NCBI RefSeq assembly: GCF_913773725.1
Contig: NZ_CAJYGK010000034.1
Span: forward strand, 1-64,000
Reading direction: 5' to 3'
DNA: 64,000 nt
Source of the DNA: an uncultured Aquabacterium sp.
GTDB lineage: Bacteria > Pseudomonadota > Gammaproteobacteria > Burkholderiales > Burkholderiaceae_C
A program made the position numbers and the translations under genes. The stretch's first letter is position 1. Every line of letters begins with the position of its first letter. This document shows positions 7,612 to 55,322 of the stretch, piece after piece. The notes under the pieces were generated by a model that saw only the letters and a list, made by a program, of their open reading frames with translations, did not search any database and had not been told where the DNA came from.

Positions 7612-8861
7612 ACCTGCCTGTCCAGACCCTGACCCTTGGCACCCCCCTGTCACCGTCGGCCGTGCGCGTCATGCTGCTGGGCTCGGGTGAGCTCGGCAAG
7701 GAGGTGCTGATCGCCCTGCAGCGCCTGGGCGTCGAAACCATCGCTGTCGACCGCTACGACCACGCACCGGGCCAGCAGGTGGCCCACCACCGCCGGACCA
7801 TCACCATGAGCGACCCGGACCAGCTGCGCGCCCTGATTGAAGCGGAGCAACCCGACCTCGTCGTGCCGGAAATCGAGGCCATCGCCACCCCGGTACTGGA
7901 AGAGCTCGAAGCGGCAGGCGTGGTGCGCGTGATTCCCACCGCCCGCGCGGCCCGCCTCACGATGGACCGGGAGGGCATCCGCCGCCTGGCCGCCGAAACC
8001 CTCGGCCTGCCCACCAGCCCCTATCGTTTCTGCGACTCGCTGGCAGCGCTGCAGGCCGCCATCGACGGCCGGGATGGCGAGCCCCCCATCGGCTACCCCT
8101 GCATCGTGAAGCCGGTGATGAGCTCGTCCGGCAAGGGCCAGAGCAAGATCGATGGCCCGGCCGACGTGCAGGCCGCGTGGGACCACGCCATGGCCGGCGG
8201 CCGCGTCAGCCATGGCCGGGTCATCGTCGAAGGCTTCATCGATTTCGACTACGAAATCACGCAACTCACCGTGCGCGCCGCAGGCCGCGGAGCCCAGCTC
8301 GGCGAGGCCCTGACCCACTTCTGCGAGCCCATCGGCCACAAGCAGGTCAGCGGCGATTACGTCGAGAGCTGGCAGCCGCAGCCGATGTCGCCCGTGGCGC
8401 TGCAACGCGCCCGCGAGATCGCCAAGGCCGTGACCGACAACCTTGGCGGCCAGGGCCTGTTCGGGGTCGAGCTCTTCGTCAAGGGTGACATGGTGTGGTT
8501 CAGCGAGGTCAGCCCCCGCCCGCACGACACCGGCCTCGTCACGCTGAGCACGCAGGTGCAAAGCGAGTTCGAGCTTCACGCGCGCGCCATCCTCGGCCTG
8601 CCCGTGGACACCAGCCTGCGTCAGGCGGGTGCGTCGGCCGTGATCTACGGCGGCGTGGACGCGCAGGACGTGGTGTTCGACGGGGTGGCTCAGGCATTGA
8701 GCGAGCCGGGCACCGATCTGCGTCTGTTCGGCAAGCCGGAGAGCTTCGTCAAGCGGCGCCTGGGCGTGGCGCTGGCCACCGACGCCGACATCGAAGCGGC
8801 CCGCGCCAAGGCGCTGCGGGCTGCAGCGTGCGTGCGCCCACGCGTGCCGGACGCGGGCTGA
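7608..8861 (+). CDS. purT: Formate-dependent GAR transformylase (phosphoribosylglycinamide formyltransferase 2)
   Basis: The enzyme uses formate and ATP to formylate glycinamide ribonucleotide in de novo purine synthesis, replacing the folate-dependent PurN step. The track ORF starts in the kinase; the real start is ATG 7608 ([22 protein letters not shown]), giving 417 residues. ATP-grasp features: [13 protein letters not shown] at the N-domain, [15 protein letters not shown] (ATP-binding loop), [16 protein letters not shown], and the Mg-binding [14 protein letters not shown]. Coupling to a two-component system by ATGA is unusual and suggests that signalling affects formate or purine metabolism. 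Confidence 0.95.
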
Positions 8862-21517: not shown

Positions 21518-23668
21518 TCAGTGCGACCAGTTCACGGTCAGCTGCGCATGGCGGGGCGCGCCGTAGTACGCCTGCTCCCAGTACAGGCTGTTGATGTACT
21601 TCTGGTTCGTCACGTTGCGAACCTGTGCCGCCACCGTCCAGTGGCGATCGATGCGGTAGCTCACGCCCAGATCCAGCAACGCATGGCTGTCCTGCCGGAC
21701 ACGGGCGCCTCCGACGGCACGGGACGTCGCCGACTGCCAGCGCCATCCCGCGGTCGCTCGCAGTCGGTCGGTCAGGTCGTGGCGCAGGCTGAGGGTGGCC
21801 CGCTCGCGCGGCAGAAAGGTACGGGCATCGTGGCCGGCATCGTCGTGGATTTGCAGGCGCGTCAGGCTGGCCGCCACTTCCAGCCCCTGCACCAGCCGCC
21901 CGGTGGCTTCCAGCTCGACGCCGCGGCTGCGGGTGTCCTGCGGTGAGTAGACGTTGCGGCCGTCCTGCCAGGTCGCGTCCCCCGCCAGCCCATCCTGCCG
22001 GGTATGAAACACAGCGGCCTGCAGGCTCAGCGTCCGATCCAGCACGTCGGCTTTCAGGCCGACCTCCGCGTTGCTGCCGCGCACGGGCGCGAGAGGCTGG
22101 CCGGACACCCCGGCCTCGGTCTGCGGCTTGAAGATCCGGGCATAGCTGGCGTATGCCGAGAGCGCAGACCGAACCTGCCACACCGCACCCACGTACGGCG
22201 TGAAGCGGGTGGCGTCGTAGGCATGGGCGACACCATAGTTGGCCCCGCTGGAGCGCATGTTCACCCACTGAGCGCCAGACAACAATTTGACAGCATCGCC
22301 CAGGCTGAACCGGGCTGCACCGTACACACCCCGGCGCTCGGCATCGAAGTCCGAGCCATCGTAGGCGGCATTCAAGGCCGGCTTGGCAAAGCGCCCGTCC
22401 CAGTCAACCAGGCTGGCGCCCAAGTCGGTGTAACGCAAGCCACCGTAGCTCGCATACCCCGAGCGCTCCGCGGCTTTTTCCTTGGCCCAGTTCGCGCCGA
22501 CCACCAGATCGTGACGACGACCGCCCAGGCGGAAAGGGCCGGATGCCTGCACATTCAGCAGGTTCTGCGTGTAGCGGCCATCAAACGCCGACGGGTAGCC
22601 GAACAAGCCCGTGCGGTCGTCACGCTGCGGGGTGCCGAATACATAGAACAGTTCTGAATCGGAGGTGTTGCGGCGGTGGGTCAAGACCGTGCGCACCTGC
22701 CAACCCTGGCCCAGGTCATGCGAAAGCTCGGCACTCAGGCGACGCTCTCGGTTGTCCCACCAGGCCCAGTCGGTGGCGGTGCTCGTGGACACGTCGTAGT
22801 CTGTCTGGGTGCCGTCCGTATAGGCCATGGGCAGCGCGCCCCACATCGGGCTTCGGGCGTGGCTTTGTCGCTCCAGCCAGCTCAGCGACAGGGTCATGTC
22901 ACGGGTGAGATCCACATCCAGCGCGCCGTACAGCGTGGAGAGGCGTTTGCCATGGCGATCGAGGTGGCTGTCGCCGTCCTGTGCGGCCCCCACCAGCCGC
23001 CCCCGCACGCCGCCATCGGCGTTCAGCGCGCCCGAAACATCCCCGGTCAGCCGCCGGGTCTGCCACGAGCCGATGCTGGCCGAGCCGGATGCCTGGAACG
23101 CGGTGGTGGGCCGCTTGCGCACGAAGTTGAGGGTCGCCGAAGGCTGTCCGGTGCCGGTCAGCAGGCCGTTCGCGCCCCGCAGGACCTCGATGCGGTCATA
23201 GATCAACGTATCGACATCGCCCCACTGGGCTCCATTGGTGAACGGCAGGCCGACGCCATCCAGCTGGAAGTGGTCGATGTCGAAGCCGCGTGCCGTGTAG
23301 TAGGTGCGGTCGGTCTCGACGCGCTCGACCGTCACGCCCGGTGCGTACATCAGCGCGTCGTTCACGGTGTTCAGGCCAAGGTCGTCGAGCTGGGCCCGCG
23401 TGAGGGTGCTGATGGCCTGCGGCGTTTCCTGCGCCGTGAGGGCCAGTCCGGTGGCCGCGCGCGAGCGCCCGCCGCGGTAGCTGTCGCGGTGCTCCGTGGG
23501 GGTGTCCTCCCTGCGGGCAGACACCGACACCCCCTCTACGGACGCCGCCGTGTCGGCCGGAGCGGCCACGGCAAGAGACCAGGATGAAGGTTGAACGGCG
23601 GCCATGCAGGCCACGAGAGAGAGAAGACGGGGGGTCGCGGCGGCGCGACGAGGCGGAATGCGAGACAT
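21518..23668 (-). CDS. TonB-dependent ferric siderophore receptor (FhuE/FpvA-like)
   Basis: 716 residues. Signal peptide, then plug domain (APADTAASVEGVSVSARRED; ETPQAISTLTRAQLDDLGL; YTARGFDIDHFQLDGVGLPF; IEVLRGANGLLTGTGQPSATLNFVRKRP) and a 22-strand barrel ending RNVTNQKYINSLYWEQAYYGAPRHAQLTVNWSH. The RGFDIDxFQxDGV and GTGxPSATLNxVRKRP segments are those of FhuE/FpvA/FoxA-type hydroxamate receptors. It lacks the extra N-terminal signalling domain, so it does not use a FecR cascade. The last residue is His where barrel proteins usually end aromatic. It follows a small membrane protein gene behind a Fur promoter. Confidence 0.92.
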   Translation of the reverse strand: MSRIPPRRAAATPRLLSLVACMAAVQPSSWSLAVAAPADTAASVEGVSVSARREDTPTEHRDSYRGGRSRAATGLALTAQETPQAISTLTRAQLDDLGLNTVNDALMYAPGVTVERVETDRTYYTARGFDIDHFQLDGVGLPFTNGAQWGDVDTLIYDRIEVLRGANGLLTGTGQPSATLNFVRKRPTTAFQASGSASIGSWQTRRLTGDVSGALNADGGVRGRLVGAAQDGDSHLDRHGKRLSTLYGALDVDLTRDMTLSLSWLERQSHARSPMWGALPMAYTDGTQTDYDVSTSTATDWAWWDNRERRLSAELSHDLGQGWQVRTVLTHRRNTSDSELFYVFGTPQRDDRTGLFGYPSAFDGRYTQNLLNVQASGPFRLGGRRHDLVVGANWAKEKAAERSGYASYGGLRYTDLGASLVDWDGRFAKPALNAAYDGSDFDAERRGVYGAARFSLGDAVKLLSGAQWVNMRSSGANYGVAHAYDATRFTPYVGAVWQVRSALSAYASYARIFKPQTEAGVSGQPLAPVRGSNAEVGLKADVLDRTLSLQAAVFHTRQDGLAGDATWQDGRNVYSPQDTRSRGVELEATGRLVQGLEVAASLTRLQIHDDAGHDARTFLPRERATLSLRHDLTDRLRATAGWRWQSATSRAVGGARVRQDSHALLDLGVSYRIDRHWTVAAQVRNVTNQKYINSLYWEQAYYGAPRHAQLTVNWSH

Positions 23669-24001: not shown

Positions 24002-25285
24002 TCAAGCGGATGGGGCCTTGTCGATCACGCTGGCCTGCTCCAAGGCGCGGGCCAGCGCCGACCGACTGGGCGTGTCGATGAACAGACACGGTTTGCCGGT
24101 GCGCTTGCAGTGCGCCTTGACGCGCCAGTACGCGCCGTGGCTGACACAACCGGTCTGACAGATCACCAGGTCGGCCGCCGCCAGCGTGGCGTCCAGCCGC
24201 TGGGGGTTGTCCTCGTCACCACCGTCGTGGTGCAGGAACCGGCCGCCCGTCTGCTCGACCAGATTCCGGTAGGCCGGCACACTGGCCGGTCGCCCGCCCA
24301 CACACAGCACGGCGCGCTTAGACAAAGCACCGTGCGGCAGCCAGTGCACCGGTGCGTCCAGTAGCGGGTCCGAGTGAATCGGCTCGGCCACCCGGGTCCG
24401 GTCGCTCATGCGTTGAGCCTGCTCGGTCAGGCGGTGCACTTCGCGTTGCAGGACCTGCAGACGCTCGGCCTGCGCCTGACGTTCGCGCAACAGCGCCTCG
24501 CGGGCGGGCAGATCAGGATGGGCCTGCGCCAGATGGTCACGCTCATCACGCAGCTGGGCCAGGGCCGTGTCCCGGCCGATGAGCTCGGCGCGCAGCTGCA
24601 GCACCGTCTGCTCCAGCGCGTCGATGCGGCGCGCCTGCTGCGCGGCCTGATCCTGCAGACGCAACTGCACGGCCTGGTGTGCCTGTTGCAGTTCCGCATG
24701 GTCTGCGAGCAAGGCCTCGAACCGCGTCTGCTCCACCCGTGTCGCCGCGCCCACCTGATGCTGCACCATGTGGACGTGGCCCAGCACCTTGGCGGCCAGG
24801 TCCGGCGTGCACCGCGGGTGCGTGAGTGTGGCCCACAACGCCTCGGCCAGACGGGGCCCGCCCGCCGCCGCCCGCCACCACTGCTGCAGCGCCAGCTCGT
24901 CCTTGCAACGCGCCGCCTGGCGCACTGCCAGCTGATGCCGGCGATCCAGATCCTTCTGCACCGCCTCGGCCAGCGGCCCGCGCTGACGGCACGCCGACAC
25001 CACCGTGCAGTGCAGCTCGTATTCGTCCGCCCACGGGGTGCCCCTCAACAGCCGACTGGCCAGATGATGCAGCGTGGGAATCGGCAGGCACACCCCCACG
25101 ACCGGGCAATGCGCGGTCGCGTCCAACTCCCAGATGCGCCGCCGGCGCGACCCCCGAGCGCCATCGGCCGGCGGTGACGGGACCGGTGTGAGCGGTGCCG
25201 CATGGACAAGCCGGACCGAGCCGGCCTCAGGCTGCATGGGGCGCGACGCGGGAAAATCGAACAAGCGGCGGGACGTATCGCACAT
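24002..25285 (-). CDS. Iron-regulated DUF2325 protein with long coiled coil
   Basis: 427 residues from ATG 25285, which has AAGGAG six bases upstream (the track starts eight codons earlier). Three parts: an N-terminal helical domain rich in Cys/His (DATAHCPVVGVCL, YELHCTVVSACR, DRRHQLAVRQAARC), a central coiled coil (~180-310), and a C-terminal DUF2325 domain (VLCVGGRPASVPAYRNLVEQTGGRFLHHDGG ... DLVICQTGCVSHGAYWRVKAHCKRTGKPC). Conserved Cys/His suggest metal or redox chemistry. The function is unknown. It sits under a Fur promoter whose core is almost identical to that of the sRNA at 27.26 kb. Confidence 0.85.
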   Translation of the reverse strand: MCDTSRRLFDFPASRPMQPEAGSVRLVHAAPLTPVPSPPADGARGSRRRRIWELDATAHCPVVGVCLPIPTLHHLASRLLRGTPWADEYELHCTVVSACRQRGPLAEAVQKDLDRRHQLAVRQAARCKDELALQQWWRAAAGGPRLAEALWATLTHPRCTPDLAAKVLGHVHMVQHQVGAATRVEQTRFEALLADHAELQQAHQAVQLRLQDQAAQQARRIDALEQTVLQLRAELIGRDTALAQLRDERDHLAQAHPDLPAREALLRERQAQAERLQVLQREVHRLTEQAQRMSDRTRVAEPIHSDPLLDAPVHWLPHGALSKRAVLCVGGRPASVPAYRNLVEQTGGRFLHHDGGDEDNPQRLDATLAAADLVICQTGCVSHGAYWRVKAHCKRTGKPCLFIDTPSRSALARALEQASVIDKAPSA

Positions 25286-25309
25286 CGGAATCTCCTTGCT
25301 TCGCGCCAC

Positions 25310-25338
25310 ACTTTAATGCGAACGATTCTCATTATCAA
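25310..25338 (-). promoter_or_regulatory. Fur-controlled promoter of the DUF2325 gene
   Basis: Minus strand: -35 TTGATA, 17-base spacer ATGAGAATCGTTCGCAT, -10 TAAAGT; predicted start about 18 bases before the ATG. GATAATGAGAATCGTTCGC matches the Fur consensus well. Confidence 0.85.
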
Positions 25339-25404
25339 TGTTTGGGGGCACCAAAAACCCGCTCACTTGAAGGGACATGCCGGCCGGCGCTAGACTGCGG
25401 GCTG

Positions 25405-27110: not shown

Positions 27111-27227
27111 AGGGGAGACTCCGAAACAGAACAACCCGGTGATCATGCACCGGGCGCCCCTTGCCGGGACCGCGGCGCTCCCGGGGGTTGATGCAGATCA
27201 GCCACACCCGAAGCGAGCCCCGATCGC

Positions 27228-27256
27228 TTGCAAATGAGAATCGTTTGCATTAAAGT
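27228..27256 (+). promoter_or_regulatory. Fur-controlled promoter facing away from bfr
   Basis: Plus strand: -35 TTGCAA, 17-base spacer ATGAGAATCGTTTGCAT, -10 TAAAGT. From AATGAGAATCGTT to TAAAGT it differs by one base in 24 from the DUF2325 promoter, in the same orientation relative to the transcript. TGCAAA-N9-TTTGCA also makes it a dyad. Predicted start near A27263. Confidence 0.75.
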
Positions 27257-27262
27257 TCCCCC

Positions 27263-27407
27263 ATGCGCTGACCTGCTCAGCGTCGTTTCGCGAGGAGCGC
27301 AAACCGTCTGACAGGACGGCCGCTCCGGTGTGGGGACATCGGGATCCTGGGGCAAGTGGGGCTGACGGATCCGTGTGCGAAACGGCGTGGGTCAGCGCAT
27401 TTTTTTT
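27263..27407 (+). ncRNA. Candidate Fur-controlled small RNA
   Basis: The segment between the predicted start and a T8 run has no ORF but clear structure. Its first 11 bases, ATGCGCTGACC, are perfectly complementary to the last 11 before and into the T-run, GGTCAGCGCAT (27390-27400), closing the molecule as a stem followed by T8. Inside, GGAGCG/CGCTCC encloses CCGTC/GACGG. Local alternatives exist: CGCTGA-CCTGC-TCAGCG at the 5' end and GCTGAC...GTCAGC at the 3' end. The layout (Fur promoter, structured 145 nt, terminator) is that of RyhB/NrrF/PrrF-type iron-responsive sRNAs. A terminating leader of the downstream receptor operon is the alternative. Confidence 0.55.
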
Positions 27408-27485
27408 GGTCGACTGGCCCGCCAAGTGTGGCGGGGAAGTGTCATCCCCCCGTCTCAGCGGTCGGGCTTGGATGCCAACAGTATT

Positions 27486-27508
27486 ACGAATCGTTATCAT
27501 TTGCAAAT
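27486..27508 (+). promoter_or_regulatory. Fur box upstream of the Fiu-like receptor operon
   Basis: GAATCGTTATCATTTGCAA, read in reverse as TTGCAAATGATAACGATTC, matches the Fur consensus. It lies ~110 bases before the receptor ATG at 27619 and should repress the five-gene operon that follows. TATCAT within it could be the -10, without a clear -35. Confidence 0.75.
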
Positions 27509-27618: not shown

Positions 27619-29856
27619 ATGTCCCGACGTCGCACTCGTGTGGCCCGCCCTGCGCAGGCCCCCACCCGATCTCTCCCGACCGTCCTGCCGCTCGGCGCCC
27701 TGGCCGCCGGCGTGGGCCTGAGCCTGCTGGCGGTGCCGGTGATGGCGCAGACGGCCAACAATGCGGCTACTGCTGAAAGTGCCGCAGCCGGTGCCACCCT
27801 ACCCACGGTCGGGGTGAAGGCAAAAAACGTCGCCAAGCCCGCAGCCAAGGAGACCTACCAGGCGGTCACCACGACGATCGGCAAGGGCAAGCAGGAACTG
27901 CGCGACATTCCCCAGTCCGTCACCGTCGTGACTGAAAAGCTGATGGACGACCGCAACCTGACCGACCTGAAGGACGTGCTGCGCACCACCGCCGGCGTGA
28001 CCTTCCTGGCCGGCGAAACGGGTGAGGAAGACGTCCGCCTGCGCGGCTTCTCGCTGGCCCAGGCTGGCGACCTGTACATCGACGGCATGCGTGACCCCTC
28101 GCTGTACGAACGCGACACCTTCAATTACGACCGCGTGGAAGTGCTGCGGGGCTCGGCGTCGATGCTGTTCGGCCGCGGCTCCACGGGCGGCGTGGTGAAC
28201 CAGGTCAACAAGCAGCCGTTCCTGATGAACCAGACGGAGATCGAGACGACGGCTGGCACCGGCAACATGTACCGTGTGACGGCCGACGTCAACGTGAAGA
28301 CCGGGGACAACGCGGCACTGCGCATCAACGCGATGAAGCACGAGGCGGACAACCACGGCGCGACCGTTTCGAAGCAGGGCATCGCCCCGACGTTCCGCTG
28401 GGGCATCGGCACAGCGGACGAGTTCACCGCCAGCCTCTATCACCTCGAGTACGACAACAACCCGATCTACGCGCACCGCTGGTTCCTGGTCAACGGCAAG
28501 ATCAAGCCGGTGATGGCCAACAACGCGTTCTATGGCCTGGACAGCGACTACAACAAGGGTGGGGCAGACTACGCGACCCTGACCCACCTGAAGCGTTTGG
28601 GTGGCGGCGCCGAACTCAAGACCAGCCTGCGTCACGGTCACTTCGAACGCGACCTGCTGGCCACCGTGCCGGCCTATGCGTCGGGCACCACGCTGGCCAA
28701 CTTCAGTGACGCCACGGTGCTGACCCGCAACCAGTCGAAGGGACGCGTGTCGGCCACGACCGGCACCCTGCTGCAGAGCGACTACACCAACAAGCTCATG
28801 CTGGCCGGCATGGAGCACAGCGTGATTGCCGGGGTAGACCTGTCGTGGGACAAGGGCCGACGCGCCAACACCTATCCTCAGACCCGTACTGGCACCAGCC
28901 TCAACACCACCGTGGGCAACCCGGACGACGGCGCCACCTTTGTGGACACCCGTGCCCCGGCCGCGTTCAACTACTTCAGCTCGCGCAACCTCGGCGCCTA
29001 CGCGCAGGACATGGTCGCCATCACCCCGACGGTGAAGCTCATCGGCGGCATGCGCTACGACGCATTCTCGGCCCACTACCGCAACGCGACCGAGAACTAC
29101 GACCGCACTGACTACCTGTGGAGCAGCCGCATCGGGGCGTTGTATCAGCCCACCGACTGGGCCTCGTTCCACGTGTCGCGCGGCACGTCGTTCAACGTCT
29201 CTGCCGACGCCTATCAGTTCGAACTCAACTCGGCGAACCGTGCGAAGCAGTCGGTGGTCGACCCTGAAAAGAGCCGCAACACCGAGATCGGCACCAAGCT
29301 GACCCTGCTGGATCAGCGCCTGTCGGTCGGCGCATCGCTCTTCTATTCCGAGAAGTACAACGAGCGCAACAACGATCCCGACTCGAACACCATCATTCTG
29401 TCGGGCAAGCGGCACGCCGCCGGCCTGGACATCGACATCGCCGGTCAGGTCACGGACAAGTGGGAGTCCTACCTCTCGTGGACCTGGATCCCCGATGCCC
29501 GGATCGACGAAGCGAAAGGGGTGACCGGCAACACCCCACGCGCGGGCGATCGCCCGGGTCTGACGCCCAAGCACAGCGGCAGCCTCTGGAACACCTACCA
29601 ATTGACGCCGCAGATTCGCGCGGGCCTGGGCATCAACCACCGCGGCTCGCAGACTCCGCCGGCCAACCGGACCATCCGTGCCGACGACTTCACCACGTTC
29701 GACGTGATGGCCGAGTACATCGTCAACTGGCGGACCTCGCTGCGCTTCAACATTTCGAACGTGACGAACCGTCTGTATGTCGATCAGGTCTACAACGGCT
29801 TCTACGTGCCTGGTGCCGCCCGCTCGGCCCAGCTCACGCTGAAGGTCACACTCTGA
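27619..29856 (+). CDS. TonB-dependent catecholate siderophore receptor (Fiu/CirA-like)
   Basis: 745 residues from ATG 27619 with GGAG eight bases before; the track ORF starts 97 codons early. Signal peptide ending ...VPVMAQT, TonB-box region, plug (KGKQELRDIPQSVTVVTEKLMDDRNLTDLKDVLRTTAGVTF; DVRLRGFSLAQAGDLYIDGMRD; DRVEVLRGSASMLFGRGSTGGVVNQVNKQP) and barrel ending YVPGAARSAQLTLKVTL. The IDGMRD...SMLFGRGSTGG combination is characteristic of Fiu-type monocatecholate receptors. A PiuC gene immediately downstream supports this, since fiu/piuA and piuC are usually neighbours. Confidence 0.93.
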   Translation: MSRRRTRVARPAQAPTRSLPTVLPLGALAAGVGLSLLAVPVMAQTANNAATAESAAAGATLPTVGVKAKNVAKPAAKETYQAVTTTIGKGKQELRDIPQSVTVVTEKLMDDRNLTDLKDVLRTTAGVTFLAGETGEEDVRLRGFSLAQAGDLYIDGMRDPSLYERDTFNYDRVEVLRGSASMLFGRGSTGGVVNQVNKQPFLMNQTEIETTAGTGNMYRVTADVNVKTGDNAALRINAMKHEADNHGATVSKQGIAPTFRWGIGTADEFTASLYHLEYDNNPIYAHRWFLVNGKIKPVMANNAFYGLDSDYNKGGADYATLTHLKRLGGGAELKTSLRHGHFERDLLATVPAYASGTTLANFSDATVLTRNQSKGRVSATTGTLLQSDYTNKLMLAGMEHSVIAGVDLSWDKGRRANTYPQTRTGTSLNTTVGNPDDGATFVDTRAPAAFNYFSSRNLGAYAQDMVAITPTVKLIGGMRYDAFSAHYRNATENYDRTDYLWSSRIGALYQPTDWASFHVSRGTSFNVSADAYQFELNSANRAKQSVVDPEKSRNTEIGTKLTLLDQRLSVGASLFYSEKYNERNNDPDSNTIILSGKRHAAGLDIDIAGQVTDKWESYLSWTWIPDARIDEAKGVTGNTPRAGDRPGLTPKHSGSLWNTYQLTPQIRAGLGINHRGSQTPPANRTIRADDFTTFDVMAEYIVNWRTSLRFNISNVTNRLYVDQVYNGFYVPGAARSAQLTLKVTL

Positions 29857-54978: not shown

Positions 54979-54996
54979 CCGCATCGTGAAATAAGT

Positions 54997-55322
54997 GTGA
55001 AGTCGGCCGATAGGCCGGATTCTGTGCAGTCCCGTGTCTCGCGACGCTGGACCGTGACCGCCATTCCTCTGGGCCGCCTGTCGCCAGAGCGGCTCGGTGC
55101 CACCTACCCGCACACTCCCCGGGCCAGGTCGTCGTGTGCCTATTTGGTGTTGCTGCGCGTAGAGATTGCCCGTTTCACCCGAACTGAATCGGCTCGTCTC
55201 TGTTGCTCTGATCCTCACCTCGCGGTGGAGAGGTGTTACCTCCTACGCTGCCCTGTGCAGTCCGGACCTTCCTCCAGTGCGCCCTTTCGGGCCTTGCACC
55301 AGCGGCGGTCTGGCCGACTTCA
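54997..55322 (-). ncRNA. rnpB: RNase P RNA (class A)
   Basis: Minus strand, ~326 nt. Starts GAAGTCGGCCAGACCGCCGC and ends AATCCGGCCTATCGGCCGACTTCAC, which closes P1. Conserved cores: GGAGGAAGGTCCGGACTGCACAGGGCAG (CRI/P4), GAGCAACAGAGACGAGC, GGTGAAACGGGC, CAACACCAAATAG and GGGTAGGTGGC-type elements. Compared with E. coli, the P4 A67 and U360 are G and C here, a compensatory pair. It is the catalytic RNA that trims tRNA 5' ends. Ends are approximate. Confidence 0.95.

Follow-up and report, generated by a model that had tools for sequence, protein, structure and literature searches.

We identified an evolutionarily maintained, structured non-coding element linked to a Fur box in a stretch of 64,000 nucleotides (hereafter, the window) from an Aquabacterium genome (G000). 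The element is very probably a Fur-controlled small RNA gene. We also consider the fuller account likely, with less certainty: a Fur-repressed, trans-acting small RNA that would spare iron by means of G-rich loops acting on mRNAs, with sdhC, followed by petB, as the best candidates. The RNA belongs to an apparently undescribed family whose functional kind is known; our literature searches turned up no earlier account of it. Its parts and the control sites around it are listed below by window coordinates.

27228 to 27256, plus strand: predicted sigma-70-type promoter (from sequence, with a similar layout in the aligned promoters of homologues)
27230 to 27248, plus strand: Fur-box-like site GCAAATGAGAATCGTTTGC within the promoter spacer, matching 13 of 19 consensus positions
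27263 to 27407, plus strand: predicted small RNA of 145 nt (fold z-score of -5.66; covariance models)
27263 to 27273, plus strand: 5' arm of the closing stem P1 (exact inverted repeat; covariation in 16 sequences)
27280 to 27292, plus strand: 5' arm of the inner stem P2 (fold; compensatory changes in the diverged set)
27294 to 27326, plus strand: hairpin 1, a variable element that other species lack or replace (fold)
27327 to 27340, plus strand: hairpin 2, GGUGU-GGGG-ACAUC, with a GGGG loop (invariant in five close homologues)
27342 to 27373, plus strand: hairpin 3, with the loop AGUGGGGCU at 27355-27363
27376 to 27388, plus strand: 3' arm of P2 (fold; compensatory changes in the diverged set)
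27390 to 27400, plus strand: 3' arm of P1, entering the T-run; predicted terminator stem
27400 to 27407, plus strand: T8 of the predicted terminator (T5 to T8 after P1 in homologues)
27488 to 27508 (approximate), plus strand: second Fur-box-like site, distinct from the first and located ahead of the TonB receptor gene

The promoter matches the preliminary description, which had placed a Fur box in the spacer of a -35/-10 pair: the -35 (TTGCAA, 27228-27233) and -10 (TAAAGT, 27251-27256) elements are 17 bp apart. Scores of at least 13 of 19 against the Fur-box consensus occur at only five distinct places in the window. The predicted start of the RNA, at 27263, lies seven bases 3' of the -10 element and is the first base of P1. 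All 16 homologue promoters carry a Fur-box-like site, the best box of each matching 11 to 16 of 19 positions, which supports the Fur control proposed earlier. Fur binding and transcription, together with the loop pairing discussed below and its effect on translation, are what we infer. Elsewhere in the window, a strong Fur-box-like site (GATAATGAGAATCGTTCGC, 15 of 19) was found at 25310-25340, before a gene for a DUF2325 protein (24002-25309, minus strand) that adjoins a FauA/FhuE-like siderophore receptor (21518-23668).

The 145 bases that follow the promoter contain no ORF and end in T8, as originally noted, and ATGCGCTGACC (27263-27273) and 27390-27400 are exact reverse complements of each other. 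The predicted fold has an energy of -77.7 kcal/mol, compared with -56.6 +/- 3.7 for dinucleotide shuffles, none of which (0 of 200) did as well. This fold comprises the 11-bp closing stem P1 and, nested within it as had been suggested, the 13-bp inner stem P2 and three hairpins; P1 is predicted to be formed essentially always, and the hairpin 2 loop has a predicted unpaired probability of 1.0. Local hairpins at both ends had been described as competing with P1. The 5' one is real: all five close homologues keep it (-8 to -11 kcal/mol), whereas the diverged ones lack it. A competing 5' hairpin is not general to the family. The 3' one ends about 6 nt before the T-run, and P1 is therefore the only stem that abuts it. 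In the close homologues, too, no local hairpin abuts the T-run, and the predicted terminator stem is P1, built from both ends of the putative transcript. The proposed Rfam search returned no family at the gathering threshold in the region, and none up to an E-value of 10 within 27200-27450. Four G-runs at 27332-27361 (GGGG-N5-GGG-N5-GGGG-N5-GGGG) fit a G-quadruplex pattern; we discarded this candidate, as the pattern is confined to the window copy and is absent in G037, G012, G036 and the diverged set.

A DNA search with the window sequence detected copies in G040, G037 and G012 (89-94% identity) and, in G036, a distant copy of which only part was matched. The latter genome holds a complete RNA with a Fur promoter, in which the closing stem GCGUUGACC/GGUCAACGC replaces GCGCUGACC/GGUCAGCGC. 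A covariance model (R1) recovered only these five copies, that of the window included, among 42 Aquabacterium genomes and gave no credible match across 401 genomes drawn from the family. The very narrow spread suggested by the five-genome DNA search was overturned by copies residing beside orthologous receptors. We sought such diverged copies upstream of orthologous TonB receptor genes, as T-runs that follow a stem arm whose complement lies some distance away, and obtained six more. All six have a Fur-box promoter and GUGGGG loops, and their closing stem is GCGUUUGUCGC/GCGACAAACGC or differs from it only slightly. A second model (R2), built from these six, added another five, each of which has a Fur box. 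Overall, the syntenic and covariance-model searches placed the RNA in 16 of the 42 Aquabacterium genomes, at one copy per genome. A model of all 16 (R3) recovered the same set and yielded only chance matches across 399 genomes of the order; since the filters were strict, more diverged relatives may exist elsewhere. Weak model matches in other genera and in G004, G013, G020 and G034 were rejected because they had neither a Fur box nor the GUGGGG loop frame, and several resembled coding sequence. Pattern matches in contigs of non-Aquabacterium genomes were inspected and rejected on the same grounds.

The 16 sequences also allowed us to check the closing-stem arms for loss in relatives, and the stem proved to be kept and covarying. 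Within the alignment, 91.9% of P1 cells are paired, and both sides change at six of ten pairs (22 cells). None of 500 shuffles equalled the alignment in paired cells, changed cells or covariation score, and sliding the P1 partner by one to three columns lowered pairing to 31-44%. In the six diverged sequences, both partners are changed at 12 of 34 pairs, some of them in the inner stem and hairpin 3, a count that leans in favor of the structure, as the structure was derived from the same alignment. Fold, covariation and homologues together support the structured non-coding product first proposed. It is hardly conceivable that the element is not a gene, that is, a chance inverted repeat, a repeat element or a small coding gene: compensatory changes run across 16 species, the promoter is conserved, each genome has a single copy and length changes are not in multiples of three. 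The 2-nt difference in length between close relatives likewise argues against coding.

Across homologues, the P1-P2 frame is kept together with one or two GUGGGG loops. Every homologue has a GUGGGG or GUGGGGG loop (GUGGGGG in many diverged copies), predicted to be mostly unpaired. The fold is very rigid, its ends are closed and its loops are small, which would also suit a structured, Fur-regulated RNA that works through protein binding, as a decoy (for example, of a CsrA-type regulator) or as a scaffold, with no mRNA pairing; several GGA triplets in the window copy are in line with this. We consider this reading quite unlikely, given that the conserved element is GUGGGG(G) and that complementary sites lie at sdhC and petB. 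A CsrA/RsmA-sequestering RNA in particular was rejected because GGA is not conserved and is absent from hairpin 3 of most diverged copies.

The gene order in the window is TerC, bfr, the RNA, the TonB receptor, a PiuC-like dioxygenase, PepSY, cytochrome b561 and FMN dehydrogenase. In most loci, a TonB receptor gene lies downstream on the same strand, and the alternative 5' hairpin of the close homologues could switch the terminator; both would fit a cis-acting leader or attenuator of the receptor gene with conditional read-through. We find this most unlikely. The receptor gene has its own Fur-box-like site further down (27488-27508), and is therefore under its own control. In G016 and G001, the downstream gene is instead PiuC, convergent on the opposite strand. 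The receptor of G012 and G040 shares only 48-52% identity with that of the window, whereas their RNA is 89-94% identical. In addition, G036 lacks bfr between TerC and the RNA (about 8140-8300 of its locus) and keeps the remaining order and the RNA. Taken together, these observations indicate that the RNA is neither a leader of the receptor mRNA nor tied to the ferritin, in agreement with the independence from the receptor gene that the preliminary description had assumed. That description had also drawn on iron-related neighbors. The receptor does stand beside most loci, but the ferritin is incidental and we dropped the link: bfr is present at only four of the 16 loci. As a separate observation, the window's receptor gene (27619-29856) is 94% identical in G037 against 48-52% in G012 and G040, while the bfr and OYE-family genes flanking it remain at 92-99%; the block from the receptor to FMN dehydrogenase was likely swapped. 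The window further encodes an ordinary class A bacterial RNase P RNA (54995-55321, minus strand).

Since sdhC is a classical target of iron-sparing RNAs, we examined its leader, which reads GGAGCCCCACACAACAUG in G000, G012 and G037. Before the start codon lie two complementary stretches, CCCCACAC for GUGUGGGG in hairpin 2 and AGCCCCAC for GUGGGGCU in hairpin 3, each over eight pairs. Most genomes also have a second CCCCAC at sdhC codons 7-11, whether they carry the RNA or not. Scanning these three close genomes with the strict pattern GGAG-CCCCAC-ATG revealed sdhC and petB as the only annotated-looking genes common to all three; the pattern was derived from sdhC, and petB was not sought beforehand. 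Both encode heme subunits of respiratory complexes, petB being cytochrome b of the bc1 complex. CCCCA precedes the petB start in G000, G012, G037, G040, G022 and G029, all of which bear the RNA, and was found there in none of the 11 readable RNA-less genomes. In G001, G016 and G033, petB has CACCACG at this place and hairpin 2 reads CGUGGUGGGG, giving seven pairs. For sodB, another classical target, a match over the start codon was confined to three close genomes. A genome-scale ranking of called genes by duplex energy was too noisy to help, because GC content and unreliable gene starts dominated it.

Leader pairing was stronger in RNA-bearing than in RNA-less genomes (p = 0.0007 for sdhC, p = 0.034 for petB), and stronger for an RNA with its own leader than for swapped partners (p = 0.045 and p = 0.02, respectively), in small and partly post hoc tests that ignore ancestry. 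The petB tree holds at most four independent RNA/site contrasts, too few for an ancestry-aware test. Candidate target sites tend to occur across species where the RNA does, as counted with shared ancestry uncorrected. Exceptions are the poor sdhC sites of RNA-bearing G023 and G041, the poor petB site of RNA-bearing G036 and the CCCAC in the sdhC leader of RNA-less G011. There is a small but appreciable chance that the RNA is Fur-regulated and pairs with mRNAs, but that its real targets are others and the sdhC and petB matches arose by chance in a GC-rich genome. Some RNA-bearing genomes do lack the sites, and a run of eight is reached by 1.4% of background leaders (two of 141 in G012, from a partial and crudely called set). 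Against this, the two genes from the three-genome scan both specify heme subunits of respiratory complexes, and petB was not chosen in advance. A second sdhC-sdhD pair of a different type lies on contig C155 of the window genome (1451-2217); the other genomes searched do not show it, and it may be a second operon or contamination (listed as 2.5% for this genome).

We favor an iron-sparing RNA directed at these mRNAs. With iron present, Fur would occupy the promoter spacer and keep the gene off. When iron is lacking, the 145-nt RNA would be made, starting at the first base of P1 and stopping at T8, and the molecule would be closed by its own 5' and 3' ends, paired as the terminator stem. GUGGGG would be exposed in two hairpin loops and pair with CCCCAC-type sites between the Shine-Dalgarno sequence and the start codon of mRNAs for iron-rich respiratory proteins, of which sdhC and then petB are the best candidates. 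This pairing would block translation of the heme subunits of complexes II and III, and iron would be saved. A bolder version, which we hold only as a tentative possibility, is a new RNA family in which one end-to-end stem serves as both terminator and cap against decay, the two GUGGGG loops clamp the sdhC mRNA at two CCCCAC sites (before the start codon and at codons 7-11), and loops and target sites change together between species.

RyhB, PrrF and NrrF are repressed by Fur when iron is present; made without iron, they block mRNAs of iron-using respiratory proteins by pairing. The RNA described here resembles them in having a promoter directly under a Fur box and in its proposed repression of respiratory iron enzymes, such as that of sdhC. 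It differs in having no Rfam match to any of them, in the pairing of its two ends and in the closed multibranch fold that holds its G-rich loops. By analogy, it looks like an unrelated counterpart of E. coli RyhB and not a sequence homologue of any Rfam family. The RyhB-like role suggested in the preliminary description gains support from the sdhC and petB sites and is one that we still infer. BrrF, a strongly structured iron-starvation RNA of 126 nt from Burkholderia, is similar in belonging to the Burkholderiales and in counting sdhC among its targets (PMC7377471). When its G-run, which parallels our G-rich loops, was replaced by C, BrrF no longer complemented (PMC7377471). However, BrrF is processed out of the 3' end of the hemP mRNA, which is under Fur control; it lacks a Fur box of its own, and its terminus is at U residues with no accompanying hairpin (PMC7377471). 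The window RNA, in contrast, has a Fur-box promoter and a predicted terminator to itself, adjoins TerC and TonB-receptor genes, and has no hemP next to it; we thus rejected its identification as BrrF. In Staphylococcus aureus, the Fur-controlled IsrR pairs at ribosome-binding sites through short repeated motifs, with sdhC among its predicted targets (PMC11257911). The mode of action of RyhB, PrrF and NrrF has been proposed for IsrR (PMC11257911) as well as BrrF (PMC7377471). IsrR uses C-rich motifs against ribosome-binding sites, whereas the RNA studied here would use G-rich loops against C-rich spacers beside the Shine-Dalgarno sequence.

It is unusual for one stem to close the whole RNA and to double as its terminator, as is proposed here. 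Loops and target leaders vary among species of a single genus, so that co-evolution of RNA and target can be tested directly. Iron-sparing RNAs arose separately in several bacterial groups, and BrrF is, to our knowledge, the only one known from the Burkholderiales. A family that covaries strongly, has a Fur promoter to itself and offers clear candidate targets would be an independent addition to these cases, and would point to the mRNAs that may be hit once more, those for the heme subunits of complexes II and III.
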